Numbered from the stretch's first letter, positions 39,710 to 64,000 are shown. The stretch: 64,000 bases of DNA from Sphingomonadales bacterium (GCA_027486895.1 JAIXOE010000057.1:1-64000); one strand, 5' to 3'. Numbers and translations are program-made. The notes: generated by a model not told the origin, from the letters alone.

Positions 39710-41299
39710 TTAGAAAAACCGAAACCCGTTATATTCTTCATTGGCGACACGCTCTAAAATACGTCGGTAACCGCGAACGCCTCCGGAATAAGGCATGAAT
39801 ACCCGAGGCTTTCCTTCAACTTCAGCACCGGTGTAGTAGGATGCTGCCTTGGGATAGAGTGTTTCTTGGGCACGGGCGTTCACATGTTCAACCCATTCCA
39901 GCTCTGCCTCTTGGGTGGTTTCAATAGCGGCACTGCCTTTTGTACTTGCAAATCCTATCAAGTCGCTGAGCCAATCAACTTGCTGTTCGATTGACAAGAT
40001 TACATTGCTGAGCAGCGATGGGCTACCGGGACCGACAAGAACGAACATATTCGGAAAACCGGACACCCCGAGCCCGAGGTAGTTCACGGGACCAAATGCC
40101 CATTTCTCGCGGAGGGTCACACCGTTTCGCCCTTTTATTTCTGGGCGGAGTAATGAACCCGTGAACGCATCAAAGCCTGTTGCGTAGATGATGACGTCGA
40201 GCGAATATTCCCGCTCTGTGGTGCGTAATCCATCCGAACTAATGTCCGTTATAGGCGACGACTTAATATCCACTAGCGTGACGTTTTTACGGTTGAACGT
40301 CTTAAAATAATTACTGTCAACCGACGGCCGCTTCGCACCGAACGGAAAACCTTCAGGTGTTAGCAACTCGCGCGTAACAGGATCATCAACCTGTTGAGCA
40401 ATCTTTTGTCGGATGAAGTCGGCCGCGGTAGCGTTCGATGCATCGTCGAGCAGAATATCTTTGTAGGCAAGCGCAAAACCAAAGCCAAGGCGGTTCCAAG
40501 CCGCCTCGTAGACGGCCTCCCTTTCTTGCGGCGTTGCCTCTAAAGCTGAAACGCCATTGGGCACAAAACCAAGACCGCTCGGCGAATTGAGGGCACGCTG
40601 CCGGCGCGCGGCATAGTCTGCCTTCACGGCGTTGTCTTCCTCGTCAGACACCGGCGCATTTGCTGCCGGGATACTGAAATTTGCCGATCGTTGAAAAACG
40701 GTTAAATGTTCGGCCTGAGCGGCGATAACGGGCGTCATTTGAACGCCTGATGAGCCAGTACCGATAATTCCAACACGTTTTCCTGCAAAGCTAATCGGCT
40801 CGCGTGGCCACGCCGCGCTGTGATAGATATTTCCCTTAAATGTCTCTTGCCCGGGATAATTGGGTTGTTTGGTGGTCGACAATTGGCCCACAGCCATGAT
40901 GAGATATTGGGAATCCCATTCCTGTCCGTCTTGCGCGGTGACGCCCCAGCGGTTGCTGGCTTCATCGAATTTGGCGCGTTCCATTCTTGTGTTAAATTCT
41001 ATGTCGCGACGAAGGTTGAAGCGCTCGGCGACATGATGAATATAAGATAGCACCTCGGGTTGGGTTGCGTAACGTTCGCTCCATCGCCATTCCTGTTCAA
41101 GCTCGGGCGAGAACATGTAGGAGTAATCGTAGCTTTCAACATCGCATCGTGCACCTGGATAGCGGTTGTGGTGCCACACACCGCCGACATCGTCGCTCGC
41201 CTCGATAATTGTTGCGGATAAACCTATTTGTCGAAGTGCATAAAGCGCACGCAACCCGCCCAGGCCAGCACCTACGATTACGACATCACATTTCTTCAT
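39710..41299 (-). CDS. Type I Baeyer-Villiger monooxygenase 1
   Basis: This 529-aa FAD/NADPH enzyme inserts oxygen beside a ketone to form an ester or lactone. It has N-terminal VVIVGAGLGGLRALYALRQ for FAD, the BVMO fingerprint FKGNIYHSAAWP (FxGxxxHxxxWP), the second Rossmann motif IIGTGSSGVQMTPVI, and ATGFDAFTGS, which occurs in cyclohexanone monooxygenase-type enzymes. The start is uncertain: ATG 41299 (MKKCDVVIVG) or ATG 41329. The longer frame overlaps the divergent gene's leader. It lies alone on its strand, facing the acyl-CoA synthetase operon across the first TCAACA-N4-TGTTGA site. Confidence 0.9.
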   Translation of the reverse strand: MKKCDVVIVGAGLGGLRALYALRQIGLSATIIEASDDVGGVWHHNRYPGARCDVESYDYSYMFSPELEQEWRWSERYATQPEVLSYIHHVAERFNLRRDIEFNTRMERAKFDEASNRWGVTAQDGQEWDSQYLIMAVGQLSTTKQPNYPGQETFKGNIYHSAAWPREPISFAGKRVGIIGTGSSGVQMTPVIAAQAEHLTVFQRSANFSIPAANAPVSDEEDNAVKADYAARRQRALNSPSGLGFVPNGVSALEATPQEREAVYEAAWNRLGFGFALAYKDILLDDASNATAADFIRQKIAQQVDDPVTRELLTPEGFPFGAKRPSVDSNYFKTFNRKNVTLVDIKSSPITDISSDGLRTTEREYSLDVIIYATGFDAFTGSLLRPEIKGRNGVTLREKWAFGPVNYLGLGVSGFPNMFVLVGPGSPSLLSNVILSIEQQVDWLSDLIGFASTKGSAAIETTQEAELEWVEHVNARAQETLYPKAASYYTGAEVEGKPRVFMPYSGGVRGYRRILERVANEEYNGFRFF

Positions 41300-41418
41300 C
41301 TCTATCACCGGCTTGTTGGAGTGCGCCATACTGCTGACCAAGTAACTTGCTATCGATGCCCATGTTGACCACGGGTTACCGATTGGTAGCCCAATAATTA
41401 TCAGGCAATTCGATAAAA

Positions 41419-41434
41419 TCAACAACATTGTTGA
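41419..41434. promoter_or_regulatory. Regulon operator A, TCAACA-N4-TGTTGA
   Basis: TCAACAACATTGTTGA is a perfect palindrome-like site (7-bp arms, 2-bp centre) in the divergent region between BVMO 1 and the acyl-CoA synthetase operon. It shares its architecture with sites at 44905, 55620 and 63750. Overlapping TTGACG to the right and TTGATT to the left could serve as -35 elements for either direction, so a bound repressor would block both. Confidence 0.65.
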
Positions 41435-41492
41435 CGACAGCAGTTGGCGTCGGTATTTGGAATCAACGGATGGCGATTGAGAGGGAATGCGC

Positions 41493-43247
41493 ATGATGGA
41501 GCCCAATGCCTTGATGGATGACAAGGCTGCGGGAGCAACCATTAGCGAACTCGTGACTCCTGAAACCCGCCAAGCGGCAATATCAGCTCGGTTTCCCGAG
41601 TGGATCCCGCGAACGCTTGATGAGATGTTTGATGCCGCGGCTACCGAATTTCCCGATCGTCCCTACGTCATCACAGATGATCGGATATGGACTTACCGAG
41701 ATATGCAGGAGTGGTCCCACCGTCTTGCTAGTGGATTAAGCGCAATAGGCGTAAAGCGCGGAGATCATGTCGCACTTGTACTTGCGAACTATCCTGAATT
41801 TGTCGCCCTAAAGCTTGCTATCGCGCGCGTGGGAGCCGTTGCTGTGCCGGTCAACATACTTAACCGTCGCGACGAGCTTGGGTATGTGTTGGCGCAGTCG
41901 GATGCCGTGATGCTGATTACGATGAATACATTTCGCGACCTTGATTATCTCTCGATGTTAGATGAGTTAATACCGGGATGGGAGAAAAATGGCAGCAGTA
42001 CAAAGTTGCCTCGACTTCGCCATGTGATTATTTTCTCGACCGATGGTCAGCCTCAGCGGGCGTCTGCTGCATATTTTGACGTTCTTGAATCGGGTCCGGC
42101 AACTAAGTTTGAAGTCAGCGGCTCGAGGCCGGATGATGTCGCCGACATCATCTATACATCTGGCACTACAGGTGCGCCGAAGGGGGTTATGCTGACCCAT
42201 GATCAGGTCCTTCGAACGGCTTATTGCAGCGCTTACGCCCGCGCATTTGAAGATGGCAGACGGATCGTCTTTTCATTGCCGATGTACCATGTTTACGGTT
42301 ACGGCGAAGGGATGCTTCCGGTAATGTTTGTCGGCGGCGCGATAATCCCGCAACTGAAATTTGACGCAGCGGCGATGCTCACCGCCATTGAGCAACACCG
42401 TGCGACCGATGCATTGCTTGTACCTATGATGACCTTAGCTTTGCTTGATGCTGCGAAAGCCGGGGATTATGATCTTTCGTCGTTTTTTGCGGTCATTTCA
42501 TCGGGAGCCCGTGCACCGGAGCGCGTATGGAATGACATTTTGGCAGTCTTTGGCGTGTCCCAAATTTCGACCGGCTACGGCATGACCGAAGTTACGGCGT
42601 CTTCAACTGTCACGCAGCCAAATGATCCAATTGATCGGCTGCTAAACACAAATGGCCGGATGCGCGATGCGGGCGTTGCGGGCGATCCGGAGAACTACGG
42701 CCGCCTTGTTAATTACCGAGTGGTTGAACCCGAAAGTGGTGACGTTTTGTTGCCCGGTTGTGTCGGTGAATTGCGGGCAAAGGGACTTGGAGTCACACAG
42801 GGCTATTACAACAAGCCCGAAGAGACAGCAGCATTGTTCGATAGTGAAGGTTGGCTCCACACTGGGGATCTTGGGAAAATCGATAGCGATGGTTACATCT
42901 ATCTCGTCGGTCGGTTGAAAGAATCTTATCGTTGCGGCGGTGAACAGGTATTGCCCACGGAGGTGGAGGACCTGCTAACATCGCATCCGTCGGTTTTGCA
43001 AGCCCATGTTGTACCGGTGCCGGATGTTCGGATGGGCGAAATCGGTGTCGCTTTTGTTGTTCCCACACCAGGCGCGGCGGTGACCGTAGAAGAGCTTCTC
43101 GCGCTGGTTCAGTCGCGCATGGCCCGGTTCAAGGTACCCAAATATCTGTTTCTTGTGGATGCGGCGGAGATTCCCACTACCGCTTCGGGACGAGCAAAGA
43201 AATTTCAATTATCCGCAAAGGCGATCAGCATGTTGAATGCGATATGA
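41493..43247 (+). CDS. Acyl-CoA synthetase (AMP-forming) 1
   Basis: This 584-aa ANL-superfamily ligase activates a carboxylic acid with ATP and CoA. It has the P-loop IIYTSGTTGAPKGVMLTH, GYGMTEVTASS, WLHTGDLGKI and GRLKESYRCGGEQVLPTEVE hinge. The C-terminal catalytic Lys probably lies in SGRAKKFQLS. GAGGGA lies 6 bases before ATG 41493; ATG 41487 abuts it and is less likely. It is first in a plus-strand operon with two SDRs and is controlled from operator A. The substrate is probably a ring-opened acid from the BVMO pathway. Confidence 0.9.
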   Translation: MMEPNALMDDKAAGATISELVTPETRQAAISARFPEWIPRTLDEMFDAAATEFPDRPYVITDDRIWTYRDMQEWSHRLASGLSAIGVKRGDHVALVLANYPEFVALKLAIARVGAVAVPVNILNRRDELGYVLAQSDAVMLITMNTFRDLDYLSMLDELIPGWEKNGSSTKLPRLRHVIIFSTDGQPQRASAAYFDVLESGPATKFEVSGSRPDDVADIIYTSGTTGAPKGVMLTHDQVLRTAYCSAYARAFEDGRRIVFSLPMYHVYGYGEGMLPVMFVGGAIIPQLKFDAAAMLTAIEQHRATDALLVPMMTLALLDAAKAGDYDLSSFFAVISSGARAPERVWNDILAVFGVSQISTGYGMTEVTASSTVTQPNDPIDRLLNTNGRMRDAGVAGDPENYGRLVNYRVVEPESGDVLLPGCVGELRAKGLGVTQGYYNKPEETAALFDSEGWLHTGDLGKIDSDGYIYLVGRLKESYRCGGEQVLPTEVEDLLTSHPSVLQAHVVPVPDVRMGEIGVAFVVPTPGAAVTVEELLALVQSRMARFKVPKYLFLVDAAEIPTTASGRAKKFQLSAKAISMLNAI

Positions 43248-44014
43248 CAGGTAGCTCAAACCAAACGCCACGCGTTGCGGTCGTTACGGGCGGCGCGCGG
43301 GGCATCGGGGCTGGAATTGCGCTGCGTCTGGCACAGGATGGGCATGATATTGCGGTAATTGACCTAGATGCCACAGCTTGCGCCGAGACCGTCCGAGACA
43401 TCAAGGGAATAGGTCGCCGCGCTTTTGCTGTCGGCGCGAATGTTGCAGATGAAGCTGCGGTGCAGGAGGCAATCTCCAATATCGTTTCGGCCCTAGGACC
43501 GCCCACAATTGTCGTTAACAATGCTGGCATTTTGCGTGATCGAACCATCGGTAAAATGAGTATCGATGACTGGGATAGCGTCATCAATGTCAATTTACGC
43601 GGCACATTCTTAGTAAGCCGCGAAACACAATTTCACATGCGTGCAGCCGGCTGGGGCCGGATCATCAACTTATCGAGCACGGCTGCCCTCGGCAATTTGG
43701 GCGAAAGCAATTATGCCGCGGCCAAGGCCGGCGTTCAGGGACTGACGAAAACGCTCGCAATCGAGTTGGGGCGATATGGTATCACTGCAAATGCCGTCGC
43801 GCCCGGTTTTGTGGAAACGGCGATGACTGCGGAAGTAGCGGAGCGAGTGGGCATATCATTCGATGAAATGAAGCAGCAAGCTGTCCGTGCAACGGTTGTT
43901 GGCCGCGTCGGGCAACCCGAAGACATTGCAAACGCAGTATCGTTTTTCGCAGATGAGCGTTCGGGCTTTGTCACTGGACAAATTCTATACGTAGCCGGAG
44001 CACCGCGCGGATGA
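43244..44014 (+). CDS. SDR family oxidoreductase (FabG-like)
   Basis: This 256-aa classical SDR has a VVTGGARGIGAGIALRL cofactor motif, NNAGILRD, INLSSTAA (Ser), and NYAAAKAGVQGL (Tyr, Lys). Asp in VIDLDATACA suggests NAD. It overlaps the acyl-CoA synthetase by 4 bp. It could oxidise a 3-hydroxyacyl-CoA or a cyclic alcohol. The C-terminus, QILYVAGAPRG, shows a small departure from the usual DGG ending. Confidence 0.9.
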   Translation: MTGSSNQTPRVAVVTGGARGIGAGIALRLAQDGHDIAVIDLDATACAETVRDIKGIGRRAFAVGANVADEAAVQEAISNIVSALGPPTIVVNNAGILRDRTIGKMSIDDWDSVINVNLRGTFLVSRETQFHMRAAGWGRIINLSSTAALGNLGESNYAAAKAGVQGLTKTLAIELGRYGITANAVAPGFVETAMTAEVAERVGISFDEMKQQAVRATVVGRVGQPEDIANAVSFFADERSGFVTGQILYVAGAPRG

Positions 44015-44135: not shown

Positions 44136-44882
44136 TTGACGGTGGTCGGCAAGCTCAGCGGCAAGACGGCAATTGTAACCGGTGCTGCGCAGGGTATTGG
44201 CCGCGCGACCGCCACTTTGTTTGCACAAGAAGGTGCACGTGTGATTGCGGTAGATGTCAACAGCGCCGCTCTGGCTGAACTCCAGGCCGAGCATGGCTGC
44301 GAGGCCGTGGTGCTAAATCTCACTGACCGAAAAGCGATCGCTGAATTCGCCAATCGAACTGTCGCTGCCGATATCCTGTTTCTGTGCGCGGGCTATGTTG
44401 CCTATGGTACTATCGAGACGTGCACTGACGATGAGTGGGATTTCTCTTTTGACCTGAATGTCACTGCCATGTTCCAGATGATACGTGCATTCATCCCGGG
44501 AATGATTGCCCGCAAAAGTGGATCAATCATTACCATGTCGTCGGTTGCAAGTTCAGTGCGGGGCGTCCCGAACCGTCTTGCTTATGCGTCTACAAAAGCA
44601 GCAATTATCGGCATGACAAAAGCACTGGCAGCTGACCACAGTTCGCAAGGCGTTCGTTGTAACGCGATATGCCCGGGAACCATTGACACTCCTTCGCTCG
44701 AGGCGCGGATGCGCGCTACGGGCGATTATGAAGCAACGCGCGCCGCATTTATCGCGCGCCAACCTGTCCAAAGATTTGGGCTACCCAATGAAATTGCCGA
44801 ACTTGCCCTCTATCTGGCGAGCGATTCATCATCGTTCGTAACTGGCCAAAGTCATGTCATCGACGGTGGTTGGTCAAACTGA
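44136..44882 (+). CDS. SDR family oxidoreductase (BDH2/2-keto-3-deoxyfuconate dehydrogenase-like)
   Basis: This 248-aa SDR has TGAAQGIGRATATLF, CAGYVAYGTIE in place of the usual NNAG, TMSSVASSVRG (Ser), and AYASTKAAIIGM (Tyr, Lys). CNAICPGTIDTPSLEARM resembles the BDH2/DHRS6 subgroup. The start is uncertain: TTG 44136 and GTG 44142 are both in frame, with a weak GAAGCGG upstream. It is 121 bp after the previous SDR without a terminator between, so probably the last gene of that operon. A short hairpin begins in its stop codon. Confidence 0.85.
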   Translation: MTVVGKLSGKTAIVTGAAQGIGRATATLFAQEGARVIAVDVNSAALAELQAEHGCEAVVLNLTDRKAIAEFANRTVAADILFLCAGYVAYGTIETCTDDEWDFSFDLNVTAMFQMIRAFIPGMIARKSGSIITMSSVASSVRGVPNRLAYASTKAAIIGMTKALAADHSSQGVRCNAICPGTIDTPSLEARMRATGDYEATRAAFIARQPVQRFGLPNEIAELALYLASDSSSFVTGQSHVIDGGWSN

Positions 44883-44903: not shown

Positions 44904-44927
44904 ATCAACACGTATGTTGAATATACT
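44899..44927 (+). promoter_or_regulatory. Promoter with regulon operator B in its spacer
   Basis: A -35 TTGTTA (44899-44904) and -10 TATACT (44922-44927) are 17 bp apart. The spacer is almost exactly the operator TCAACACGTATGTTGA (44905-44920). A repressor bound here would exclude RNA polymerase. The promoter drives the CaiB-BVMO 2-esterase-FMO-TetR operon, so the TetR protein encoded in it would regulate itself. Confidence 0.65.
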
Positions 44928-44986
44928 GATCAGATTATAAGGCGAGGTGCTGATTCCGATGACGATCAATAATTCGAGGCAGCATC

Positions 44987-46075
44987 GTGGTTAGCGTTTC
45001 ACACTATCTTTCGGGCGTTAAGATTCTCGACTTGTCGCATTATGTTTCAGGGCCGTTTGCTAGCCTTTTGCTCGCTGACATGGGTGCAGATGTCATCAAG
45101 ATTGAGCCGCCAGCAGGTGACCCAATGCGGCATTTGGGGCCCGCCGATGCCAAGGGCGATCCGCTGTTTTACGGCGCTCTTAGTGCAGGCAAATCAGTGC
45201 TTCACCTTGATCTTAAATCTGATGAGGGCTCTGCTCGGATGCAAGAACTTTTGGTTGACACGGATATTTTGATCGAAGGCTTTCGTCCCGGCGTGATGAC
45301 GCGTCTTGGACTTGATTATGCACGGCTAAGCGTATTGCACCCGTCGCTTATATATTGTTCGATAAGTGGATATGGCGTGGACGCTCCACTTTCGGCTGCC
45401 GCCGGGCATGACGGTAATTACCTCGCCACAAGTGGTATTCTGCATAGGAACGGCACGACTTCGCCACATTTTTTCGATCCGCCGATAGCCGATATGTCGG
45501 GCGCTCTGTTCGCTGTGATTGCGATTTTAGGTGCGCTTAATGCACGAAGCCGGACGGGCAAAGGTGCGCATATCGAACTTGGCCTTGCCGATGCGTTGAT
45601 GCCTCTTCAACTAATGCAGATCGCTGAATGGGGTGCGAATGCTACGGTTCCTACGCGGCAATCAACCTATTTGAATGGCGCTGCTGCATATTATCAGGTG
45701 TACGCAACCGCAGATGCAAAGCATGTTATGTTGGGGGCAGTTGAGCCTAAATTCTGGCTAAATTTCTGTGAAGCAGCTGGTCGTCCGGATTGGGTTAAGC
45801 GGCATGATGACCCTCTACCGCAGCATAGGTTGATCTCTGAACTTTCAAACTTCTTTGAACAGCATGAAGCGGTGGACATTTGTCGTCGTTTCGAGGGTAT
45901 AGAATGCTGTCTTTCACCCGTCCTTGATTTGGGAGAGGCGCTTCAGTCGCCGCAAACATTGGCGCGCGGTCTGGTGAAATCGGACGGGGGTAGACTGCAG
46001 GCGCTTTTCCCAGCTTATTTCGATGGAAAGACGACCACGGCGCGTCCCCCACTGCATAGGCTTGATCCCGCATGA
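44987..46075 (+). CDS. CaiB/BaiF family CoA-transferase or alpha-methylacyl-CoA racemase
   Basis: This 362-aa family III protein starts at GTG 44987 with SGVKILDLSHYVSGPFASLL. The racemase-like features are AGHDGNYLATSG (catalytic His), PPIADMSGALFAVIAILGAL (Asp) and MLGAVEPKFW (Glu), which match AMACR better than CoA-transferases. AMACR epimerises 2-methylacyl-CoA esters, a typical need in breakdown of branched isoprenoid chains or sterol side chains. It is first in the operon from operator B, overlapping BVMO 2 by 4 bp. Confidence 0.85.
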   Translation: MVSVSHYLSGVKILDLSHYVSGPFASLLLADMGADVIKIEPPAGDPMRHLGPADAKGDPLFYGALSAGKSVLHLDLKSDEGSARMQELLVDTDILIEGFRPGVMTRLGLDYARLSVLHPSLIYCSISGYGVDAPLSAAAGHDGNYLATSGILHRNGTTSPHFFDPPIADMSGALFAVIAILGALNARSRTGKGAHIELGLADALMPLQLMQIAEWGANATVPTRQSTYLNGAAAYYQVYATADAKHVMLGAVEPKFWLNFCEAAGRPDWVKRHDDPLPQHRLISELSNFFEQHEAVDICRRFEGIECCLSPVLDLGEALQSPQTLARGLVKSDGGRLQALFPAYFDGKTTTARPPLHRLDPA

Positions 46076-49884: not shown

Positions 49885-49885
49885 C

Positions 49886-55772: not shown

Positions 55773-56975
55773 CTAGCTCAATCCGTGACCCATTTGTGGA
55801 TCGGCGATATTCGCTATCAATTTCTTTCTCTGATCAAAATTGGTCGCACGGATGTCAGCTATCCCATGTTCGGTGATAATGATATCAACATCACTCTGTG
55901 CAGACGTTACATAACCACTGGTAAGGTACGGGACGATGCGGCTTATTGTTCCGCGTTCGTTGACAGAAGGTAGGGCCAGAATAGCAAGGCCATTTGCGGA
56001 TGCATGGGCGGCACGGAAATAGTCTGTTTGTCCGCTTGAAGCCCCGACGTAGCGGTCACCAAGATATTCCGCATTTGCCTGTCCACGCAGGTCCACCTCA
56101 ATGGCCGAATTTATCGCCAGAAACGGTGACCCCGCAATGGGTTGAACAAGGCGCGCGGGAGGCGCAAACCCAAGCAAGCCCTCTGGCGATAGGCTGCTGT
56201 AAATGCTGCTGCCAACGGCCAGTGATGCGAGGCATGAGTCGGGAGTGGCCTCATCGACAGCACCTGCGGCAACCAGTTCTAGAAACCAGTCCCCAACCAT
56301 CCCGCATCGAATGCGTAAGCCGCGGCGATCTAACAGAGCATGGGCTATAGCTGCAGAGAGCTTACCGATGCCCAGTTGCAGGGTGGCCCCATCAGGCACG
56401 AGTCTGGCGACCTCGCGGGCTACTCGGCTCTGCAATTCTCCTGCAGGTTCAGCCGGCAATTCAGGCAGCGGAGTCTGGCTATTTAGCGCCACAACTACCT
56501 CGCTGCTATGCAGGCGACAGTCACTGCGCGTTGCTGGTATATTGTCATTGACCTCGACGATCACGACCCTGGCATTTTGAGCTGCTTCCCAAACATAATC
56601 TACCGCCGGTCCAAGACTGTGATAACCCTCCGCGTCCATTGGAGCAACTTGCAGTAGCACCACATCGATAGGCATTTTGCCCGACTTCAGTGCGGTGCTG
56701 AGTTGCGACATCGAGAAGGGAATGACTTGTGCTCGAGAACGTCCGACAAGAGACCCAATTGTACCCAAGCCGCAATAAGTGGAGATACGCAGTGAGGTAG
56801 GAATTTCGCCCTTCCAAGCAGTGTTAAGCGAATAGCCGCAAAAAACCTCGATCTCGGTAAGCTGACGGGCTACGTCAAACATCTCTGCGACGAGCCCTTG
56901 TGGCTCGCCAGTCGCTTGGCCAATCATGATGCGATCGCCGGACCGCAGATGTTCGGAAAGAACGGAGGCGGTCAT
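55773..56975 (-). CDS. Acetyl-CoA hydrolase/CoA-transferase family protein
   Basis: This 400-aa family I CoA-transferase has the catalytic Glu293 in INSAIEVDLRGQANAE, where it forms a glutamyl-CoA thioester. SGQTDYFRAAHASANGLAIL and ITEHGIADIRATNFDQRKK are the family C-terminal segments. Relatives use acetyl-CoA or another acyl-CoA as donor. It is the last gene of the eight-gene minus-strand operon from BVMO 3. It could load CoA onto, or off, a pathway acid. It begins 6 bp after the upstream gene. Confidence 0.88.
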   Translation of the reverse strand: MTASVLSEHLRSGDRIMIGQATGEPQGLVAEMFDVARQLTEIEVFCGYSLNTAWKGEIPTSLRISTYCGLGTIGSLVGRSRAQVIPFSMSQLSTALKSGKMPIDVVLLQVAPMDAEGYHSLGPAVDYVWEAAQNARVVIVEVNDNIPATRSDCRLHSSEVVVALNSQTPLPELPAEPAGELQSRVAREVARLVPDGATLQLGIGKLSAAIAHALLDRRGLRIRCGMVGDWFLELVAAGAVDEATPDSCLASLAVGSSIYSSLSPEGLLGFAPPARLVQPIAGSPFLAINSAIEVDLRGQANAEYLGDRYVGASSGQTDYFRAAHASANGLAILALPSVNERGTISRIVPYLTSGYVTSAQSDVDIIITEHGIADIRATNFDQRKKLIANIADPQMGHGLS

Positions 56976-56981: not shown

Positions 56982-58109
56982 TTATTCCAAGTCAGATTTT
57001 ACTTTTAGATGTTCAGGCAGCTGGCCAGCAATGGTCAGGGTCATGCTGGCGGAGCCGCTGCTCGCTTTGCCTTCCAAATCGGCAGTAATGGAAACGGGTT
57101 GGATGCGGTGCCAGTGCACTTTTTCAGTACCATCCGGCAAAATTACTTTAGCCGGGTGCGAGACATCCCAAACGTCCGATTCAAGGTGATTATCGCCGCG
57201 CCATGCCCCGAGACCGCGGCCATCATTATAGCCACCACTGTAACCTAGGCCTTGCATTGCGATGGACGGACCTAGTGCTACCACATCCAAATTCAGTGTC
57301 TGACCATTTTGCAAAGTCGCCACCACTCCAGCCCCACGGAAACGTCTGGTGCCCTCGTGTAACTCAACTTCAAGCGCAATATCGGTTACATGGTGGGATA
57401 TCTGGGTCTCACGCTCTGTTATGACGCCGGTTGTATAAGGCAAGTCATCGCCCCGGCCGGAAAATAAGAGGCTTCCGCTCATCGTTGAAGTCGAAAAGAA
57501 TAGGAACGCCATAACATGGCCCTTTTCCGACAAGGGCACCTTCGGACCCGTCACCGGCTCGGGCACGCCCATGCCACGCCTGACGCCCCAGCTATGGTCG
57601 CGGCAAGACCACCAATTGTCGATATCAATGCGCTTGCCATCAACTTCTAAAAAGCCTGATGCAGTGCCGATTTGGTCAAAACGGCGATAATCCTCCACCG
57701 TCCGGCCATGTAATCGCGTATAGTGTGGATCTTCCTCATGCGCCGGTTCCACGCACTCCCATTGAATATGGCCATGCAGCGCGCCGTCATTTGGTTCGAC
57801 CATAATATCAAAAGATTTGAGCGCTTCTATTGGTGTGATTCGCAATGGTCCGCAAACTGTTTCAACACTGCCGTTCAGCGAGCGCGAAACACGAAGATTA
57901 TGCTGTTTGCCGTCGACGATCATGACCGCGCCAGCATCAAGAACATTCATATTGCGGTAGGCGCCCATGGTAATCTGGATCGCTACACGCCCATCGCCCG
58001 AATAGATAGCAAACCAATAGCGGTCGAAAAATCGCGGATCGCTTGTCCAAACATGGTCAAACGTCGTCGGCAACTGATGCCATAATGTGTCGTCGAGAGC
58101 AGTTAACAT
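56982..58109 (-). CDS. Protein of unknown function (DUF7064-like)
   Basis: This 375-aa protein has no enzyme motif I can name. From ATG 58109 (MLTALDDTLWHQLPTTF) it is rich in beta structure, with conserved-looking WWSCRDHSWGVRRGMG at its centre (Trp, Arg, His) and WDVSHPAKVILPDG late. The pattern recalls lipocalin-like families such as the carotenoid 1,2-hydratase (CrtC) or AttH group and the DUF7064/7065 proteins found beside APH-type kinases; this is weak memory-based evidence. A hydratase acting on isoprenoid double bonds would suit the island, but that is speculation. It is separated by 4 bp from the preceding gene. Confidence 0.6.
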   Translation of the reverse strand: MLTALDDTLWHQLPTTFDHVWTSDPRFFDRYWFAIYSGDGRVAIQITMGAYRNMNVLDAGAVMIVDGKQHNLRVSRSLNGSVETVCGPLRITPIEALKSFDIMVEPNDGALHGHIQWECVEPAHEEDPHYTRLHGRTVEDYRRFDQIGTASGFLEVDGKRIDIDNWWSCRDHSWGVRRGMGVPEPVTGPKVPLSEKGHVMAFLFFSTSTMSGSLLFSGRGDDLPYTTGVITERETQISHHVTDIALEVELHEGTRRFRGAGVVATLQNGQTLNLDVVALGPSIAMQGLGYSGGYNDGRGLGAWRGDNHLESDVWDVSHPAKVILPDGTEKVHWHRIQPVSITADLEGKASSGSASMTLTIAGQLPEHLKVKSDLE

Positions 58110-58113
58110 AAGG

Positions 58114-58578
58114 TCACGTTTCCGGAGTTGATGTGATGATGGCGGGTGCGTTCGGCACGTAACGCATGGGCGCACGAGCAGCCCGGTTGATCATATGGGT
58201 TTCGATAGAACGGCGAATTTCAGGCGTGAGATCAGGGCTGCAGACAGCCTCTGCGAGCAAGGCGCGGAGCAACCGGTTGCGTTCTTCGATGGCTGCGCCA
58301 TCAGCAACGTCAGGCTCACCTGCTTGTGCCGCTGTGTCAATACGCCCGACAAGATCCGTCTTAAGCGCCGGTTGCATCGCCAAGAGCAGACTTAACGTCG
58401 CCACATTGTCATCTCGCACAAATCCGGCAACCTTGGGCAGGGCTACCTTTAACATACGGAGGTTTGCAATCAGATTGTCAAGGATCGTCCGAGCATAGGA
58501 GTCCGAAACGCAAGGAGCGACCACCGTCTCCAATATGCGACATGTTCCTTGCAATTGTTCCTCCACCGTTGGTCTCAT
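58114..58578 (-). CDS. Small helical protein of unknown function, APH-associated
   Basis: This 154-aa all-helical protein (MRPTVEEQLQGTCRILETVV) starts at ATG 58578 and overlaps the phosphotransferase stop by 4 bp. A longer frame begins inside that gene and is disfavoured. No catalytic motif, signal peptide or membrane segment is visible. The strict coupling suggests it forms a complex with, or is a second subunit of, the APH-like kinase. Confidence 0.6.
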   Translation of the reverse strand: MRPTVEEQLQGTCRILETVVAPCVSDSYARTILDNLIANLRMLKVALPKVAGFVRDDNVATLSLLLAMQPALKTDLVGRIDTAAQAGEPDVADGAAIEERNRLLRALLAEAVCSPDLTPEIRRSIETHMINRAARAPMRYVPNAPAIITSTPET

Positions 58579-59582
58579 CGCGCCCCCGACATCATATGAA
58601 ACATGGGCCGGTATAACCATGATGGGGTTTGGAAAACACGGTTGTAACGTTCCGATACAAATTCATGAACGGCGGTCAGTTGAATTACCGACAGTTTCCA
58701 GCAGGAGAACACATTCCACCAAGTGAGAGCTGCGTCGCTGACTTTACGGCCCGTCAGCTTGCTATATGCCGCAACAATATGCGCGCGCTCCCAATGCCCA
58801 GCAATCTGGTGTTCGCTTTTACGCACGGGGTTCGTAATCCACCCCAGATCTTCAAGTGGGTCCCCTAGATGCGCGGTTTCCCAGTCGAGCTTTGCAGTGA
58901 TAACGTTGTCCTCGATCAAAGCGTTGCCGGGCTTGAAATCGCCGTGCACCAGCACTATTGCTTCAGCATCCGGCGCGTTATTATCCAACCAGTTCAACAC
59001 ATAATCCAACTCTGGATGCGGTTCGATCTGGACCCGCCGATATTCCGCTTCCCACTGGTGCAGTTCGGTTTTCGCTGGTGACTTTTGGGGCACACCCAGA
59101 CGTTCCCCCAGGCCATGCAATTGCCAGTCAAATTTCTGCATATTCGCCATAAGTTCAAGGAAATCGTGGGCCAATTTTAACCGTTCGGGCAGTGGACGAC
59201 TGCCATTTAGAACCATGTAATCGCAACTGCCAGAAACCCGTTCCATTACGACCGACGGCGCGCCCAGAAAGCGACCGTCTGGGTCCATCCAGTGAACAAC
59301 GGGGGCAGCTACCGCGCTGCCTTTAAGTGCTTTGAGAACATGAAACTCGCGGGATCGCTCCGTAGTAAGTAAGGTCCCGGCCGCATCTCGCATGAGCATC
59401 AATGGGTATGAATGGGTACCGCTCGCGTCTGTCCAAGAGGCATCAAACGACCAGTTCTCCCGCGAGAGGCCACCGGCTGCACGGGACAGGCCGGCAAAGG
59501 TGATCTCGCGTGCGGACGGAACCGCGTCACACATTAACGCCTTCAGTCCTTCAACGACCTGCTGGGCGGGTGTGCTCATCAT
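58575..59582 (-). CDS. Aminoglycoside phosphotransferase (APH)-family kinase
   Basis: This 335-aa kinase-fold protein has the catalytic loop VHGDFKPGNALI (His213 to Asn220) and metal-binding DWETAHLGDP (Asp233). It matches the ACAD10-type phosphotransferases found in lipid and steroid catabolic clusters rather than drug-resistance enzymes. ATG 59582 was preferred because GAAG lies 6 bases upstream; ATG 59588 and TTG 59594 are alternatives. In this setting it might phosphorylate a hydroxy-acyl-CoA so it can be dehydrated, as suggested for ACAD10/11. It does not indicate antibiotic resistance. Confidence 0.82.
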   Translation of the reverse strand: MMSTPAQQVVEGLKALMCDAVPSAREITFAGLSRAAGGLSRENWSFDASWTDASGTHSYPLMLMRDAAGTLLTTERSREFHVLKALKGSAVAAPVVHWMDPDGRFLGAPSVVMERVSGSCDYMVLNGSRPLPERLKLAHDFLELMANMQKFDWQLHGLGERLGVPQKSPAKTELHQWEAEYRRVQIEPHPELDYVLNWLDNNAPDAEAIVLVHGDFKPGNALIEDNVITAKLDWETAHLGDPLEDLGWITNPVRKSEHQIAGHWERAHIVAAYSKLTGRKVSDAALTWWNVFSCWKLSVIQLTAVHEFVSERYNRVFQTPSWLYRPMFHMMSGAR

Positions 59583-59590
59583 TGACATCT

Positions 59591-60472
59591 TCAAAAAATA
59601 GCCATGGGGGTGATTGGACTGCCCGTGCCGCCGACAAGCGGGAGTGCAGCTGCTACGAACAGGAATTCAGTGACACCGCTCTCTGCCAGCTCAGCTAGGA
59701 CGACGCCCTCAAGAAGGGAAATACCATAATCGCGGATGAGACGTTGATGGACGGGAAATATCGTGCCTTCGGGAAATGGCATGGCCTCAATCGCGAAATT
59801 ATCCGCTCCGACCAACGCAATCCCGGACGTTGCGAGCCAGAGCGCTGCTTCCACATCAATGCCCGGCTCATTATTGAAGTCAACGTTGCGTGGGAGCTTG
59901 CCTGTTTGATTTTCGAGCCAACCAGTGCGGATCAAAATCGCATCTCCCTTTTGCAAGGTCGTACCGGATGCTGCTGCCACGGAGGCGAGTTCGACGGCAC
60001 CAATTGACTCTCCGTCGGCAAGAGGGCTACCTCGTCCCTTTGCTACATCAAGAAGCACACCGCGCGTTACAATCGGCGGTAGCTTCTCTATTCCACATTT
60101 TTTCGCGCCATGCGTGCTGTTTATCTCGGTGCTTGCAAAACCATTATATAGCTCATCATCACACCAAGCATGGCACAAAGCATCGATATGCGTGCCAATA
60201 TGGACGGGCATCACCACGGTATCTTCTGCGAATTGAAACCCACCCTTGGCCTTTGCCCCTCCAGCATAATCACCGCCGTCGCGGTCCATGAAATGCTGCA
60301 AGCCACCCCGGTGTCCCGGCACCGGCGTTTTCTTGGATAACGGTTGCGCGAGTGACAACACGCGCCCCTGTTTAACCAGCGCGGTTGCTTTCAAGACTTC
60401 GCTTGCAGTAATCAGGTTTGCTGCTCCGACCTCGTCAGCGTCACCCCAAAGTCCCCACGCTTCATGCGCCAT
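59591..60472 (-). CDS. Cyclase-family metal-dependent hydrolase
   Basis: This 293-aa member of the cyclase/kynurenine formamidase-like family has the metal-binding motif HIGTHIDALCH (His91, His95, Asp97, His101). The family opens amide, ester or lactone bonds. In a BVMO cluster a lactonase role is attractive. Its start overlaps the end of the acyl-CoA synthetase by 11 bp. The N-terminus EAWGLWGDADEVGAANLI is a common opening in this group. Confidence 0.87.
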   Translation of the reverse strand: MAHEAWGLWGDADEVGAANLITASEVLKATALVKQGRVLSLAQPLSKKTPVPGHRGGLQHFMDRDGGDYAGGAKAKGGFQFAEDTVVMPVHIGTHIDALCHAWCDDELYNGFASTEINSTHGAKKCGIEKLPPIVTRGVLLDVAKGRGSPLADGESIGAVELASVAAASGTTLQKGDAILIRTGWLENQTGKLPRNVDFNNEPGIDVEAALWLATSGIALVGADNFAIEAMPFPEGTIFPVHQRLIRDYGISLLEGVVLAELAESGVTEFLFVAAALPLVGGTGSPITPMAIF

Positions 60473-62054
60473 TGCTTATCTCCATTGCGCCGACGAGTTT
60501 GGCAGCTTCTGACTTTAGCGACTGGCGCATCAGCTTACCGGTCGTGGTGCAAGGGAGGCTTTCACGAATTTCGATCCGATCGGGTAGTTTATAGCTTGAT
60601 ACAATTTTTCGGCAGTGCGCGATCAGCGCATCTTCTGAGAGCGAAGCGCCTGTTGCCAGTACGATAAAGGCAATGATCGTCTCCCCCCGTTTACTGTCCG
60701 GCACACCAACGACTGCGGCTTCGGCAACGTCCGCATGCTGCATCAGCACATCTTCAACCTCGGCCGGTGAAACGTTAATACCAGCGCGCTTGATCATTTC
60801 CGAATTACGGCCAAGAAAAACAATCTCCCCTTCTGCGGTCAGCGTTCCGATATCGCCGGTGCGATACCAACCGTCTTTCGTGAAAATTTGCGCATTGTGG
60901 ATGGCGCTTTGTCCACCATAGCCACGCATTATATAACCACTAACCTCTATGAGCCCGGGCGAGCCGCGCATCACGGGCTTTCCAGTTTCGACATCAATAA
61001 AGCGGATATGCACCCCCGGCAAAGGTAGTCCCTGACTGGCAGACCGCCGTTCCAGTGGCCAGTCATGCGGCGTAACGCAGCAGTTGCCATAGGTTTCACT
61101 TGATCCGTAAATGTTGCAAATTTGCGCTGCCCCAAGGATGCTCGCGGCGTTGATCACGTCTTGCGGATTGCCAATGGTTAGCCCGGTACGCAGGCTACGG
61201 GTACGTTCCGAGTTAAAATCATCATGTCCAATCAGCGCGCTCGTCATGCCAGGCAAGGTATAAATCGCCGTGCATTGGTGCGTCTCAATGAGCGAAAGTG
61301 CCGGGCCTGGTTCGAACCGTTCCTGCAATACGAACGTCGCGCCATGGGTAAAGGTCGCCGGCAGGGCATTCGCGGCCCCATAGGCCCAGAACATTGGAAC
61401 CGACGCGAAGACGCGGTCGCTCGGGACGAGGCCTTGCCGCTCCCCTATATTAAAACCGTTTTCAATTAGTCCATAATGCGCAAGCCGAACCGCCTTGGGT
61501 TTGCTGGTTGAACCGGAGGTATATAAAATGAGACAATCGTCGGTAGCGCTTGGTCCATCGCCTGGCGGCAGATCAACCTGTGCACTTGCGAATATTGATT
61601 CATAGCACAGCCATTCTTCATCCGGAGCGGTGCCATTGACCATGACGAGCATCCGCAAGTTCGGAAGGCGAGGACGGAGTTCGCTCAGAGTTGCAACGAA
61701 ATTTTCCTTGCCCACTGATGCCACCGAAAAAAGTATCTCAACATCCGCATCGGCAAGGATGAACTCCAATTCGGCTTGTGTGGACCAAGTGCTGATAGGC
61801 ACCAGCACCGCGCCTGCAGCCAGCGCGCCAAAGCAGATTTCGATCCATTCGGTCCGGTTGCTGGCGAGCAAACCTACCCGGTCTCCGCGCTTAACACCTT
61901 TCGCACGAAGGCCCGAAGCGAGCTCTGCGGCACGGCGTGCCAGTTCAGCGTAGCTTGTTACTCTGCCGTCCGAAATTACAGCAGCACAATCACCATGTAG
62001 CAGCGCTTGCTCACAGAGGAGGTCTGGCAGAGTGCGGCTGAACGGCGCGCGCAT
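60462..62054 (-). CDS. Acyl-CoA synthetase (AMP-forming) 2
   Basis: This 530-aa ANL ligase has the P-loop ILYTSGSTSKPKAVRLAH, which departs from the usual SGTTGxPK (Thr to Ser, Gly to Ser), then IYGSSETYGNC, WYRTGDIG and TTTGKLMRQSL with the C-terminal catalytic Lys. The ATG at 62054 is 1 bp past the BVMO 3 stop; the upstream frame runs into BVMO 3 and is rejected. It would activate an acid formed after ring or ester opening. It differs from the ligase at 41.5 kb, so at least two acids are probably activated in the pathway. Confidence 0.9.
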   Translation of the reverse strand: MRAPFSRTLPDLLCEQALLHGDCAAVISDGRVTSYAELARRAAELASGLRAKGVKRGDRVGLLASNRTEWIEICFGALAAGAVLVPISTWSTQAELEFILADADVEILFSVASVGKENFVATLSELRPRLPNLRMLVMVNGTAPDEEWLCYESIFASAQVDLPPGDGPSATDDCLILYTSGSTSKPKAVRLAHYGLIENGFNIGERQGLVPSDRVFASVPMFWAYGAANALPATFTHGATFVLQERFEPGPALSLIETHQCTAIYTLPGMTSALIGHDDFNSERTRSLRTGLTIGNPQDVINAASILGAAQICNIYGSSETYGNCCVTPHDWPLERRSASQGLPLPGVHIRFIDVETGKPVMRGSPGLIEVSGYIMRGYGGQSAIHNAQIFTKDGWYRTGDIGTLTAEGEIVFLGRNSEMIKRAGINVSPAEVEDVLMQHADVAEAAVVGVPDSKRGETIIAFIVLATGASLSEDALIAHCRKIVSSYKLPDRIEIRESLPCTTTGKLMRQSLKSEAAKLVGAMEISNGA

Positions 62055-62055
62055 G

Positions 62056-63681
62056 TCAGGAGGCTTTGCTTTGGATGAAGCCACGATAGCCCTCTGCTGC
62101 AACCTCATCGCAAATTCGGGTATAGACCCCCAACCCACCAACATAAGGAAGCATTACACGCGGCTTTCCCGGGATGTTAGCACCCATATACCAACTGTCG
62201 GCGTGCACATGGAGTGTCCCGTTGGCGACTTCGCGGACATGTTCGACCCAGTCATCTTCAGCCTGCTGGTCTGCTTCGATCAATTGCAATTCTTCGCGCG
62301 CCATGTGTATCAGGCAATTGCCCACCCAGTCTACATGTTGTTCAATCGACATGACTACATTGGTCAAAATGGACGGACTGCCGGGACCGGTCAGCGTAAA
62401 AAGATTGGGAAAGCCGGCCACCATGATTCCCAGATATGTCTTGGGCCCGTCGCTCCACTTGTCCTTCAACGACTTGCCAGCGCGTCCCCGGATGTCGATC
62501 CGCGTTAGCGCGCCGGTGACTGCGTCATAGCCGGTGGCGAAAACAATGCTATCAACCGGATAGAAGTCGTCGGTCGTTTCAATGCCTTCCTTGGTTATTC
62601 GCTGTATAGGCGTCGCGCGCGCATCGACTAGCGCAACATTATCGCGGTTGAACGTCGCATAATAATCGGTGTCGACGCAAATGCGCTTGGTACCTATCGC
62701 GTGATCAGTTGGCGTCAGTTTCGCTGCGACGTCTTGATCTTGAACAATTTCCCCGATCTTCGTCCGCACATAATCGGCAGCCAGATCATTTGCTGCCTTG
62801 CTCTTGAACAGGTCATTAAAGGCATGCGTGAAATTGGCGCCACCGTGTGACCATCGAGCATCAAATTCGCCTTGCCGTTCTTCGTCGCTCACTTCTAACG
62901 CGCTGCGCTGGCTGTACTGGTATAATGCCCCGGATTTTGATGCTTTGGCGGTTGCGCGATGATGCGCCGCCTGTCGTTTCCAGTTTTCTTGTTCAGCGTT
63001 TGATAGCGGATAGTTCCAAGCGGGTATGCTGAAATTGGGCGTTCGCTGAAAAACCGTAAGATGTGCAGCTTGTTGGGCAACCATAGGAGTAACCTGAATG
63101 CCTGACGACCCGGTACCGATCACTGCAACACGTTGTCCCGTAAAATCAACCGGATCGTGCGGCCATTGACCAGTGTGATACCAGGTACCGCCAAAGTCGT
63201 CCAAGCCTTCGAAATCCGGCTTACGAGATGCGGACAGCGCGCCTGACGCCATAATGCAGTAACATGCAGTGACTGTAGTGCCGTCCTCAGTTTCAACCCG
63301 CCAGATATCTGTTTCTTCGTCAAAATGCGCTGCGGTCACGCGGGTATCGAATTGAATGTCGCGCCGCAAATCGAAACGGTCCGCAACATGTTCGATATAT
63401 TTCAGTATCTCAGGCTGCGCAGGATAGCGTTCGGTCCAAACCCATTCCTGCTGAAGTTGCTCATCAAACGAGTAGGAATATTCCATGCTGTATACATCGC
63501 AGCGCGCGCCGGGATAGCGGTTCCAAAACCATGTTCCGCCAACATCGCTGCCCGTCTCGAAACCACGGGCTGACAAGCCAATCTCGCGCAGTTTGTGGAG
63601 CATATAGAGTCCGGCGAAACCAGCGCCGACGACAATTGCATCATAATCCGTTTGTGGCTTTGCAGGCAAATGAGGTGACAT
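62056..63681 (-). CDS. Type I Baeyer-Villiger monooxygenase 3
   Basis: This 541-aa FAD/NADPH monooxygenase has IVVGAGFAGLYMLHKLREI, fingerprint FGGTWYHTGQWP, VIGTGSSGIQVTPMV and ATGYDAVTGALTRIDIRGR. ATG 63681 (MSPHLPAKPQ) has GGAGAG upstream. The frame extends to 63744, but that would place the start upstream of the likely transcription start set by operator D. It is the first gene of an eight-gene minus-strand operon ending with the CoA-transferase at 55773. Confidence 0.92.
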   Translation of the reverse strand: MSPHLPAKPQTDYDAIVVGAGFAGLYMLHKLREIGLSARGFETGSDVGGTWFWNRYPGARCDVYSMEYSYSFDEQLQQEWVWTERYPAQPEILKYIEHVADRFDLRRDIQFDTRVTAAHFDEETDIWRVETEDGTTVTACYCIMASGALSASRKPDFEGLDDFGGTWYHTGQWPHDPVDFTGQRVAVIGTGSSGIQVTPMVAQQAAHLTVFQRTPNFSIPAWNYPLSNAEQENWKRQAAHHRATAKASKSGALYQYSQRSALEVSDEERQGEFDARWSHGGANFTHAFNDLFKSKAANDLAADYVRTKIGEIVQDQDVAAKLTPTDHAIGTKRICVDTDYYATFNRDNVALVDARATPIQRITKEGIETTDDFYPVDSIVFATGYDAVTGALTRIDIRGRAGKSLKDKWSDGPKTYLGIMVAGFPNLFTLTGPGSPSILTNVVMSIEQHVDWVGNCLIHMAREELQLIEADQQAEDDWVEHVREVANGTLHVHADSWYMGANIPGKPRVMLPYVGGLGVYTRICDEVAAEGYRGFIQSKAS

Positions 63682-63749
63682 TAGCAGCAGGCTCTCCAAT
63701 CTTTCAGCATCGTTCGTGGGGTATAAATTTACGCTCGACAGCACTCAAA

Positions 63750-63765
63750 TCAACACCTATGTTGA
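63750..63765. promoter_or_regulatory. Regulon operator D, TCAACA-N4-TGTTGA
   Basis: TCAACACCTATGTTGA lies in the 139-bp divergent region between BVMO 3 and an SDR. Leftward, TTGATT (63753-63748) and TAAATT (63731-63726) are 16 bp apart and would start BVMO 3 transcription near 63719. Rightward, a perfect TATAAT lies at 63771-63776. A protein on the operator would cover promoters in both directions. Confidence 0.65.
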
Positions 63766-63820
63766 AAGCATATAATACCACAAAGTTATTTGCAATACTA
63801 ACTAGTATGATTGCGAAAAT

Positions 63821-64000
63821 ATGGACGAATTTTTAGGCAAGATTGCATTAGTCACCGGGGCCGGAGCGGGAATTGGCCGTGCAATTGCGCTGCGGTTGGC
63901 AAGCGGCGGAGCCGATGTGGGTGTTTTTGATGTTAATGCTAACGCCGCGCAGGAGGTGGCTGAAGCTGTGGGCGACCTTGGGCGTCGCGCCTGTGTTGTT
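63821..64000 (+). CDS. SDR family oxidoreductase, N-terminal fragment
   Basis: The 60 visible codons begin MDEFLGKIALVTGAGAGIGR and run through GVFDVNANAAQEVAEAVGDL, the first Rossmann half of a classical SDR with an NAD-type Asp (FDVN). The catalytic Ser-Tyr-Lys part lies beyond the window. It is divergent from BVMO 3 across operator D and so probably belongs to the same regulon. Confidence 0.85.
   Translation, partial: MDEFLGKIALVTGAGAGIGRAIALRLASGGADVGVFDVNANAAQEVAEAVGDLGRRACVV

Follow-up and report, generated by a model that had tools for sequence, protein, structure and literature searches.

A candidate operator-defined island with several Baeyer-Villiger monooxygenases in a Sphingorhabdus genome, possibly serving ketone catabolism

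Introduction

Among the closest described systems, Rhodococcus erythropolis DCL14 acts on the p-menthane ketones menthone and dihydrocarvone with a Baeyer-Villiger monooxygenase (BVMO), the monocyclic monoterpene ketone monooxygenase, after which, in the part of the account drawn on here, an epsilon-lactone hydrolase, CoA activation and beta-oxidation follow (PMC4097962). In the present study we analysed a stretch of 64,000 nucleotides (hereafter the window; GCA_027486895.1 JAIXOE010000057.1:1-64000, our C37:1-64000) of a 126,949-bp contig in a 2.87-Mb genome of the genus Sphingorhabdus, which carries an island of BVMO genes whose promoters share the palindrome TCAACA-N4-TGTTGA. The island spans about 32-87.5 kb of the contig (about 55 kb) and is cut by the window end at 64000.

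Like the DCL14 route, the island encodes BVMOs, a lactone-hydrolase-type esterase and CoA ligases, families which by themselves do not fix the substrate. It differs from DCL14 in having four BVMOs, an AMACR-like protein, a set of MaoC, DUF35 and thiolase-fold proteins, a pyrroloquinoline quinone (PQQ) alcohol dehydrogenase, TonB-dependent receptors and the palindromic operator. With the camphor pathway of Pseudomonas putida (P450cam, diketocamphane monooxygenases and CamF, as partly outlined in PMC4097962) it shares a cytochrome P450 of the CYP101 family, a Baeyer-Villiger step and CoA activation; in contrast to that pathway, there is no luciferase-like monooxygenase (LLM) among the island's Pfam matches, the Tyr96 position is occupied by His, and the P450 is dispensable in relatives. 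The progesterone cluster pdc of Caenibius tardaugens likewise places a sphingomonad BVMO in a regulated cluster, BVMO and LLM being interchangeable there; it differs, however, in having four genes within 4.6 kb, and the section of the report used here mentions neither a CoA ligase nor an AMACR (PMC12239570). Finally, Shy/Sal and ChsH1-ChsH2/Ltp2, as far as the source is cited here, also join a MaoC protein, a DUF35 protein and a thiolase-fold protein (PMC12329534).

No description of the gene combination was found in the open-licence literature, and one may exist elsewhere; that literature yielded no paper joining Sphingorhabdus with Baeyer-Villiger, BVMO with the beta-keto acid cleavage enzyme, or Baeyer-Villiger with DUF35 and MaoC. 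The enzymes are of known kinds, and it is their combination that seems new. Overall, we lean towards reading the region as a horizontally exchanged, inducible catabolic island whose substrate would be an alicyclic or branched isoprenoid-type ketone or its alcohol counterpart; the observed part of this reading consists of gene content, operator, synteny, purifying selection and recurring sub-modules.

A putative operator at the promoters of the island

The initial annotation had attributed a common regulatory motif to these genes without spelling it out. Our results show that the motif is real: TCAACA-N4-TGTTGA has four exact sites in the 2.87-Mb genome, all of them within the island and intergenic (the one at 41419 provided that BVMO1 starts near 41300), when about 0.12 would be expected per genome from base composition. 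Three of them lie in the window, namely the exact palindrome TCAACAACATTGTTGA at 41419..41434 between BVMO1 and CoA ligase 1, TCAACACGTATGTTGA at 44905..44920 upstream of the genes for the AMACR-like protein, BVMO2, the esterase, a flavin-containing monooxygenase (FMO) and TetR1, and TCAACACCTATGTTGA at 63750..63765 between BVMO3 and the third short-chain dehydrogenase/reductase (SDR3). The fourth, at 81488 beyond the window, occupies the TetR2/MaoC promoter. The placement of exact operators at the promoters of three BVMO genes agrees with the earlier claim of one regulon in which several BVMOs belong to one catabolic programme.

The start of BVMO1 is probably near 41300 and not at the end of the called open reading frame (ORF; 41542), since the first ~80 codons of that frame overlap the divergent CoA ligase gene and the operator at 41419. 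When up to one mismatch is allowed, 20 places are found in comparison with 5 for a reversed control, each palindrome being counted once. The one-mismatch sites of the cluster, at 55620, 74146 and 74330, lie at the promoters of TonB-dependent receptor 1 (TBDR1; TCAACACTCGTATTGA, 55620..55635, upstream of the gene) and of BVMO4/TBDR2.

Two relatives, Sphingorhabdus sp. EL138 (a metagenome-assembled genome, MAG; G003) and Sphingomonadales bacterium 28-55-16 (G006), keep all four exact and all three one-mismatch cluster sites in position. When the nine genomes that carry some or all of the gene set are taken together, 22 of 24 exact sites fall within the island or its modules (four of four in each of G000, G003 and G006, one of two in G017, two of two beside module A in G341, two of three in G345, two of two in G329 and three of three in G115). 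No exact operator occurs in eight comparison genomes (G001, G008, G032, G423, G083, G245, G369 and G153, among which G032 was not screened for the thiolase-fold gene). These findings point to an operator-defined regulon whose site is nearly confined to module-bearing loci across genera, and TetR2, encoded just outside the window, is most likely the repressor predicted to act through it.

Two other candidate patterns were discarded. No exact 9-12-mer was shared by three or more intergenic regions, after which the spaced palindrome was spotted by eye and tested; a first pattern, TCAACANNTANGTTGA, gave 19 matches in the window at three mismatches, with 12 expected.

Baeyer-Villiger monooxygenases and their recurrent neighbours

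BVMO1 (39710..41300, minus strand), BVMO2 (46072..47667, plus strand) and BVMO3 (62056..63680, minus strand; the called ORF extends to 63744 and a shorter start was chosen) all keep FxGxxxHxxxWP intact, as originally reported (FKGNIYHSAAWP, FAGPVLHTGNWP and FGGTWYHTGQWP, respectively). They also carry the second fingerprint [A/G]GxWxxxx[F/Y]P[G/M]xxxD and the Rossmann motifs, which together with FxGxxxHxxxW(P/D) define type I BVMOs in the part of the source cited (PMC9836352). By these motifs, BVMO1-3 are type I Baeyer-Villiger monooxygenases, with a predicted oxygen insertion beside a ketone. Over the aligned part they are 52, 55 and 54% identical to phenylacetone monooxygenase (PAMO), respectively, and 49-56% identical to each other. 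BVMO4 (72115-74121, beyond the window) has a long N-terminal part; in its fingerprint, FKGPSVHTACYP, Tyr replaces Trp, and the second type I fingerprint is present.

In a single FastTree run on 28 selected sequences, BVMO1 falls in a clade of eight with support 1.0, the one clade for which a support value was printed, and all eight members have CoA ligase 1 in the same fetched locus. BVMO2 groups with enzymes of Rhodoferax and Glaciimonas, and BVMO3 with Burkholderiales enzymes from Comamonadaceae, Rhodoferax and Glaciimonas. In a Rhodoferax MAG (L145) and in Glaciimonas (L148), BVMO2-type and BVMO3-type genes lie in one locus that also contains an SDR, an esterase-like match and ABC-transporter-like ORFs judged from their sequence starts. 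In addition, a Comamonadaceae MAG (L170) holds BVMO1, BVMO3, FMO, a TetR1-like gene, an esterase-like match and CoA ligase 1 in one locus. These three loci are separate assemblies of the same parts in other bacteria and provide the best evidence that these parts serve one pathway.

Further BVMO genes were observed along the way. An LLM-like ORF, named from its protein start, follows BVMO2 at once or after ~3.8 kb in the Rhodoferax and Glaciimonas loci (L145 11647-12723, L148 15429-15740). Four other contigs of the genus (L077, L078, L079 and L080) hold a different cluster with a BVMO at 39-41% and a CoA ligase 1 homologue at 45-48%; L077 and L078 include a CYP101-like P450 (31%), which in the case of L079 and L080 falls immediately outside and has one in-frame stop. 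A 4.8-kb contig of the genome under study carries a further BVMO4-like gene (42%) beside a TonB receptor (L003 1-4227). In three Gammaproteobacteria MAGs (L156, L158 and L159), a BVMO at 51-52% stands a few kilobases upstream of an ACAD1/ECH1/HIBADH-type operon (ACAD1 and HIBADH at 48-55%), with MFS-like and carboxylesterase-like ORFs in between in L156 and L158.

Modules in other genera

The island can be divided into modules which recur elsewhere. Module A (MaoC protein, a 178-aa protein, DUF35 protein, thiolase-fold protein, BVMO1, CoA ligase 1, SDR1 and TetR2) stands together in G341, G345, G329, G221 and on the uncharacterised pSFD01 of Sphingopyxis sp. FD7, and its core recurs in five further genera, four of them with the same operator. 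SDR1 follows CoA ligase 1 in all five. Homologues of TBDR1 (59-64%) and an esterase-like match (31-38%) lie near module A in G345, G329, G221 (TBDR1 in part) and pSFD01, and an FMN dehydrogenase is found alongside in G345 and G329. The thiolase-fold protein occurs in eight of 396 genomes of the order (E <= 1e-60). In seven of these it shares its locus or island with a BVMO1 homologue, and in the remaining one, G393, ~1.5 kb were viewed to either side of a 37% match. In the island itself module A is split: BVMO1, the CoA ligase and the SDR occupy 39.7-44.0 kb, and the genes from TetR2 through the thiolase-fold gene occupy 80.6-84.2 kb, both halves bearing an exact operator.

Module B (FMO, TetR1, AMACR-like protein, cyclase 1, CoA ligase 2, APH-fold protein, 168-aa protein and DUF7065-like protein) recurs in G423 at 39-64%, with no BVMO match in the 40 kb compared around it. 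DUF7065 was abandoned as a tracer of the cluster, G423 being the only match above 40% beyond the genus.

Module C (SDR3 plus the genes from cyclase 2 as far as the aldehyde dehydrogenase) is found on pSFD01, for which we take G115:C2 given the same coordinates, as two blocks that are split and inverted beside insertion sequences and accompanied by a BVMO3 remnant. There module C is 56-91% identical to the island, with the same internal order within blocks, and module A 45-74%; exact operators lie at 49639, 75059 and 192154. Unlike the island, pSFD01 has no best match to the AMACR-like protein, BVMO2 or module B (E <= 1e-15) in the three stretches compared, and it holds a second module C copy with an LLM instead of BVMO4. 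This second copy, from cyclase 2 to ECH2, covers ~63-71 kb (L179, L176), and the exchange may be a natural swap of two Baeyer-Villiger enzyme types. The SnoaL protein of module C occurs in three of 396 genomes. pSFD01 also carries mmsA-type and partial HIBADH-like genes, and strain FD7 is described as coming from industrial cooling water, with no substrate named, in the passage of the source cited (PMC7273453).

Conservation, selection and exchange

A genome search for conservation of the gene set had been suggested at the outset; it finds the set kept in EL138 and 28-55-16 save for the P450, from the LysR gene to the acyl-CoA synthetase gene, and modules of it elsewhere. At the DNA level, C37:28182-87528 is 93% identical to 28-55-16, and 32386-87575 is 94-95% identical to EL138, in both cases as two pieces on either side of the absent P450. 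Further right (90-127 kb) the flank, compared with 28-55-16 alone, is syntenic at only 75-80%.

In comparison with both relatives, dN/dS is at most 0.36 in 40 of 40 genes (two matches being partial), indicating purifying selection. The values of dS vary by block: 0.02-0.12 from BVMO1 to BVMO2 and from the acetyl-CoA hydrolase/transferase gene to BVMO3, 0.26-0.42 from the esterase to the major facilitator superfamily (MFS) transporter gene, and 0.3-1.0 in the valine-type genes, except for HIBADH in EL138 (0.03). We read this pattern as repeated recombination of what would be a working island. In 28-55-16 the match to CoA ligase 3 is spread over two frames (L070, G006:C18 ~45.8-47.3 kb), and the gene may be frameshifted there.

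The P450 as an accessory gene

The P450 gene (51762..53006, minus strand) is intact in the island. Membership in a P450 family calls for at least 40% identity to its members, and 51% identity to CYP101D2 together with the heme Cys at residue 359 places the protein in CYP101, in keeping with its initial label. The Tyr96-equivalent residue, which binds the camphor carbonyl in CYP101 according to the excerpt relied on (PMC9655578), is His92 here (GMEHKLVP), which sets the enzyme apart from the camphor-binding members A1, D1 and D2.

P450 hydroxylation had been placed first in the predicted route. In this regard, all that is left of the gene between the MFS transporter and TBDR1 in EL138 and 28-55-16 is a short start and a remnant of the C-terminus, the rest being syntenic; these 320-bp slots differ by 2 bases and may derive from one deletion event. 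A third relative, G017, has a pseudogene, whose match begins at residue 203, contains stops, has Tyr for the heme Cys and abuts a truncated GST gene. The P450 is hence gone or broken in all three relatives with a visible slot, with other genes under selection in EL138 and 28-55-16, and no P450 match (E <= 1e-5) appears in the compared pSFD01 stretches, nor does the module A locus of G341, G345, G329 or G221 have one. We therefore discard the P450 as the essential, defining entry step: if our reading of the island is right, this natural deletion shows that the enzyme put first by the annotation is unneeded. By comparison of these loci the P450 is an accessory, dispensable component, which might widen the substrate range. 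The module B-like locus of G423 carries two P450s, at 42 and 33%, which would suggest an older link of P450s with module B.

The AMACR-like protein and the thiolase-fold enzyme

The protein encoded at 44987..46075 (plus strand; Pfam CoA_transf_3) has the CoA-transferase III fold and is an AMACR-like 2-methylacyl-CoA epimerase by its similarities. Catalysis in AMACR relies on the His and Asp of the GHDxNY region, a later Asp and Glu241. The best PDB matches of our protein are Mycobacterium MCR structures, and in the alignment to MCR the GHDxNY region and the later Asp are conserved, the position of Glu241 being Ala; the AMACR-type label given at first is thereby borne out.

The thiolase-fold protein keeps the nucleophilic Cys, and in all six sequences that are at least 66% identical HDCF is replaced by ADN(T/S) and GHP by GEA; the G393 match (36%) differs at the HDCF/GHP positions. 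Two labels were rejected: that of an SCP2-type thiolase, for lack of the HDCF motif and the GHP His, and that of a Sal/Ltp2 aldolase, whose catalytic motifs in the cited part of the source are YDCY or YDHF (PMC12329534) and not ADN(T/S). The island further differs from Shy/Sal and ChsH1-ChsH2/Ltp2 in that MaoC and DUF35 are separate genes.

As regards the core module, one tentative idea that we advance is that it constitutes an undescribed catabolic unit, in which a divergent MaoC/DUF35/thiolase-fold complex would cleave a beta-branched acyl-CoA to a ketone for BVMO1, under TetR2 control, and which would have spread among sphingomonads by plasmids and islands. Beta-methyl branches are otherwise handled by a carboxylase route of the Atu/Liu type. 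If this idea is true, the module would offer an oxygen-dependent way round such branches, replacing that route.

A proposed function and its alternatives

For the ketone-catabolic island proposed above, we envisage that the substrate would enter through the two TonB receptors, its alcohol form being oxidised by the PQQ alcohol dehydrogenase, the aldehyde dehydrogenase and SDRs. BVMO2, BVMO3 or both would convert the ketone to a lactone or ester, to be opened by the HSL-type esterase or by a cyclase-fold hydrolase, and CoA ligases would activate the resulting acid. The AMACR-like protein could then set the configuration of a 2-methyl branch, the chain would be shortened by the MaoC/DUF35/thiolase-fold set together with the ACAD2-3HCDH-ECH2 set, and BVMO1 and BVMO4 might oxidise ketones released later. 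Branched C4 units carrying the 2-methyl group may leave through the adjoining isobutyryl-CoA/valine-type operon. A TetR-family repressor, likely TetR2, would switch the island through the operator. Within this proposal, a p-menthane ketone of the menthone or dihydrocarvone type is the concrete substrate that we would name first, by analogy with DCL14 and with little confidence. If the proposal is right, it names a regulon, an operator and a small core gene set common to several sphingomonad genera for a ketone catabolism to which no earlier assignment was found, and makes four BVMOs and an odd thiolase-fold enzyme available for assay; what had been a 'cluster of oxygenases' becomes a short list of inducers and mutants.

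Several observations weigh against this proposal. Regarding regulation, 13 of the 16 one-mismatch operator sites sit outside the cluster, including one at 113966 of the same contig, and such sites therefore weigh less; G221 carries module A and has no exact operator in its whole genome, the L170 locus has none even at two mismatches, and either TetR1 or TetR2 (28% identical) might bind the operator. As to chemistry, the thiolase-fold enzyme is without the residues of thiolases and of the known aldolases, and the link with the valine-type operon may be mere neighbourhood, its dS being mostly 0.3-1.0, unlike the BVMO blocks. In addition, BVMO1-3 are closest to PAMO, and PAMO and steroid monooxygenase top the PDB lists of BVMO2 and BVMO3, the two that were searched, which keeps an aromatic or a steroid ketone in view as substrate.

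An aromatic substrate would be an aryl or alkyl-aryl ketone or an oxy-aromatic, with oxygen inserted beside the ring by a BVMO, a phenol or benzoate freed by the esterase and ring cleavage encoded elsewhere in the genome. The 52-55% identity of BVMO1-3 to PAMO would suit it, as would the pSFD01 copy whose BVMO4 position is taken by an LLM, considering that the cited part of the source proposes, for a Sphingobium growing on anthraquinone, the joint use of an LLM, a type I BVMO and hydrolases (PMC9836352); lig-type extradiol dioxygenase genes also lie on pSFD01, ~6 kb beyond one module copy, a further point against our proposal. Nevertheless, no ring-cleaving dioxygenase is found among the Pfam matches of the genes scanned from 35 to 87 kb, and the AMACR-like protein, three CoA ligases, beta-oxidation genes and beta-keto acid cleavage enzyme seem to point to aliphatic or alicyclic skeletons, so that we hold an aromatic substrate to be unlikely. 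Slightly less probable still is the side chain of a steroid or polycyclic terpenoid, from which a steroid-monooxygenase-type BVMO would remove an acetyl group and on which the MaoC/DUF35/thiolase-fold set would act like Shy/Sal or ChsH1/ChsH2/Ltp2. Steroid monooxygenase does rank after PAMO when BVMO2 and BVMO3 are searched against the PDB, the three-protein layout is that of steroid side-chain hydratase-aldolases in the extracts cited (PMC11321319, PMC12329534), and the progesterone cluster of Caenibius joins BVMO and LLM in the account used here (PMC12239570). The replacement of the aldolase motifs by ADN(T/S) speaks against it, however, neither module B nor module C accompanies the core module in the G345, G329 and G221 stretches that were compared, and no steroid-nucleus enzyme was recognised from the Pfam families of the cluster, no search having been aimed at such enzymes in cluster or genome.

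A further alternative, improbable overall and yet the most serious of the three, is that two or three independent catabolic clusters for different substrates form a mosaic at one spot under a common regulator. The modules do occur apart (A in G345, G329 and G221; B in G423, where P450s are present and a BVMO match is absent; C twice on pSFD01), dS varies by block, and there are two TetRs and two TonB receptors. On the other hand, a single operator stands at promoters of all three modules in the island and of A and C on pSFD01, and BVMO1, BVMO3, FMO and CoA ligase 1 are brought together in the Comamonadaceae locus. We retain a single ketone-catabolic island as the preferred reading.

Gene inventory and edges of the island

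All genes listed initially (three BVMOs, FMO, P450, esterase, cyclase-fold hydrolase, two CoA ligases, AMACR-type protein and SDRs) were found as open frames with the stated families in a Pfam scan. The set was taken as a complete cluster; the genes are real, and the set is incomplete within the window since the island continues to ~87.5 kb. Likewise, SDR1 (43244..44014, plus; adh_short) and SDR2 (44136..44882, plus; adh_short_C2) lie inside the window, and SDR3 (63821..64591, plus) leaves it at 64000 as an open frame continuing on the contig.

A LysR-family regulator (32384..33271, minus; HTH_1 and LysR_substrate) forms the left edge of the segment conserved in EL138 and 28-55-16, the longer ORF that contains it being 92 and 81% identical there at the amino acid level, respectively. 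An aldehyde dehydrogenase follows (33377..34873, plus; Aldedh, E 2e-129), which from sequence and neighbours we take to be probably a methylmalonate-semialdehyde dehydrogenase. The valine/isobutyrate-type operon (35025..39565, plus; 33.4-39.6 kb with the aldehyde dehydrogenase), preceding BVMO1, encodes an acyl-CoA dehydrogenase, a 235-aa protein, a hydrolase, an enoyl-CoA hydratase and a dehydrogenase; judging from their families, hydrolase and dehydrogenase are presumably of the 3-hydroxyisobutyryl-CoA hydrolase and 3-hydroxyisobutyrate dehydrogenase (HIBADH) types. HIBADH, the only operon gene checked for a second copy, has a 91% copy on another contig (C27:192556); this copy, the mmsA-type and partial HIBADH-like genes of pSFD01 and the conserved AMACR residues all count in favour of the proposed function. 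The 235-aa protein (36167-36874), without a convincing Pfam family, is 77% identical in both relatives and diverges faster than its neighbours.

To the right of BVMO1 lie CoA ligase 1 (41487..43247, plus; AMP-binding), which adjoins BVMO1 in other genera, the HSL-type esterase/lactone hydrolase (47669..48589, plus; Abhydrolase_3), FMO (48586..49884, plus; FMO-like, 199 bits; homologues at 64% in G423 and 54% in L170), TetR1 (49841..50491, plus; TetR_N and TetR_C_24), the MFS transporter (50481..51722, minus; MFS_1) and TBDR1 (53053..55527, minus). On the minus strand, the Pfam scan further assigns an acetyl-CoA hydrolase/transferase (55773..56975) and an APH-fold phosphotransferase family protein (58575..59594). 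Between them are a DUF7065-like protein (56982..58109, start codon chosen), which has a weak Pfam match below cut-off, a 51% homologue in G423 and a single-sequence fold at pLDDT 31 that was left unused, and a 168-aa protein of no Pfam family (58114..58620; 39% homologue in G423). Cyclase-fold hydrolase 1 (59591..60472, minus; Cyclase; 60% in G423) and CoA ligase 2 (60462..62144, minus; 55% in G423) precede BVMO3.

Beyond the window, SDR3 is followed by a GST, cyclase-fold hydrolase 2, a beta-keto acid cleavage enzyme (BKACE), a SnoaL-type protein, CoA ligase 3, an acyl-CoA dehydrogenase (ACAD2), a 3-hydroxyacyl-CoA dehydrogenase (3HCDH), an enoyl-CoA hydratase (ECH2), BVMO4 and TBDR2. Next come the PQQ alcohol dehydrogenase, an aldehyde dehydrogenase, TetR2 (80650-81309), the MaoC protein (81583-82023, plus), the 178-aa protein, the DUF35/OB protein, the thiolase-fold protein, an FMN-dependent dehydrogenase and an acyl-CoA synthetase ending at 87565. 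The 178-aa protein has a marginal MaoC match (E 0.11), and by eye the MaoC catalytic motif is absent. A 200-aa minus-strand ORF at 81457-82059 is most likely spurious, as the plus strand encodes MaoC, kept at 70-80% in five other genera.

No tRNA integration site was found in the window or L001, the only tRNA gene found being a tRNA-Arg at ~93.1 kb, outside the conserved segment. At the left edge (28573-32284), N6/N4 DNA methylase, DUF5681 and terminase-like ORFs form a phage- or transfer-agent-like cassette. In EL138 its methylase and terminase-like ORFs match at only 38-39% with DUF5681 unmatched, and in 28-55-16 the cassette is 95-97% identical.

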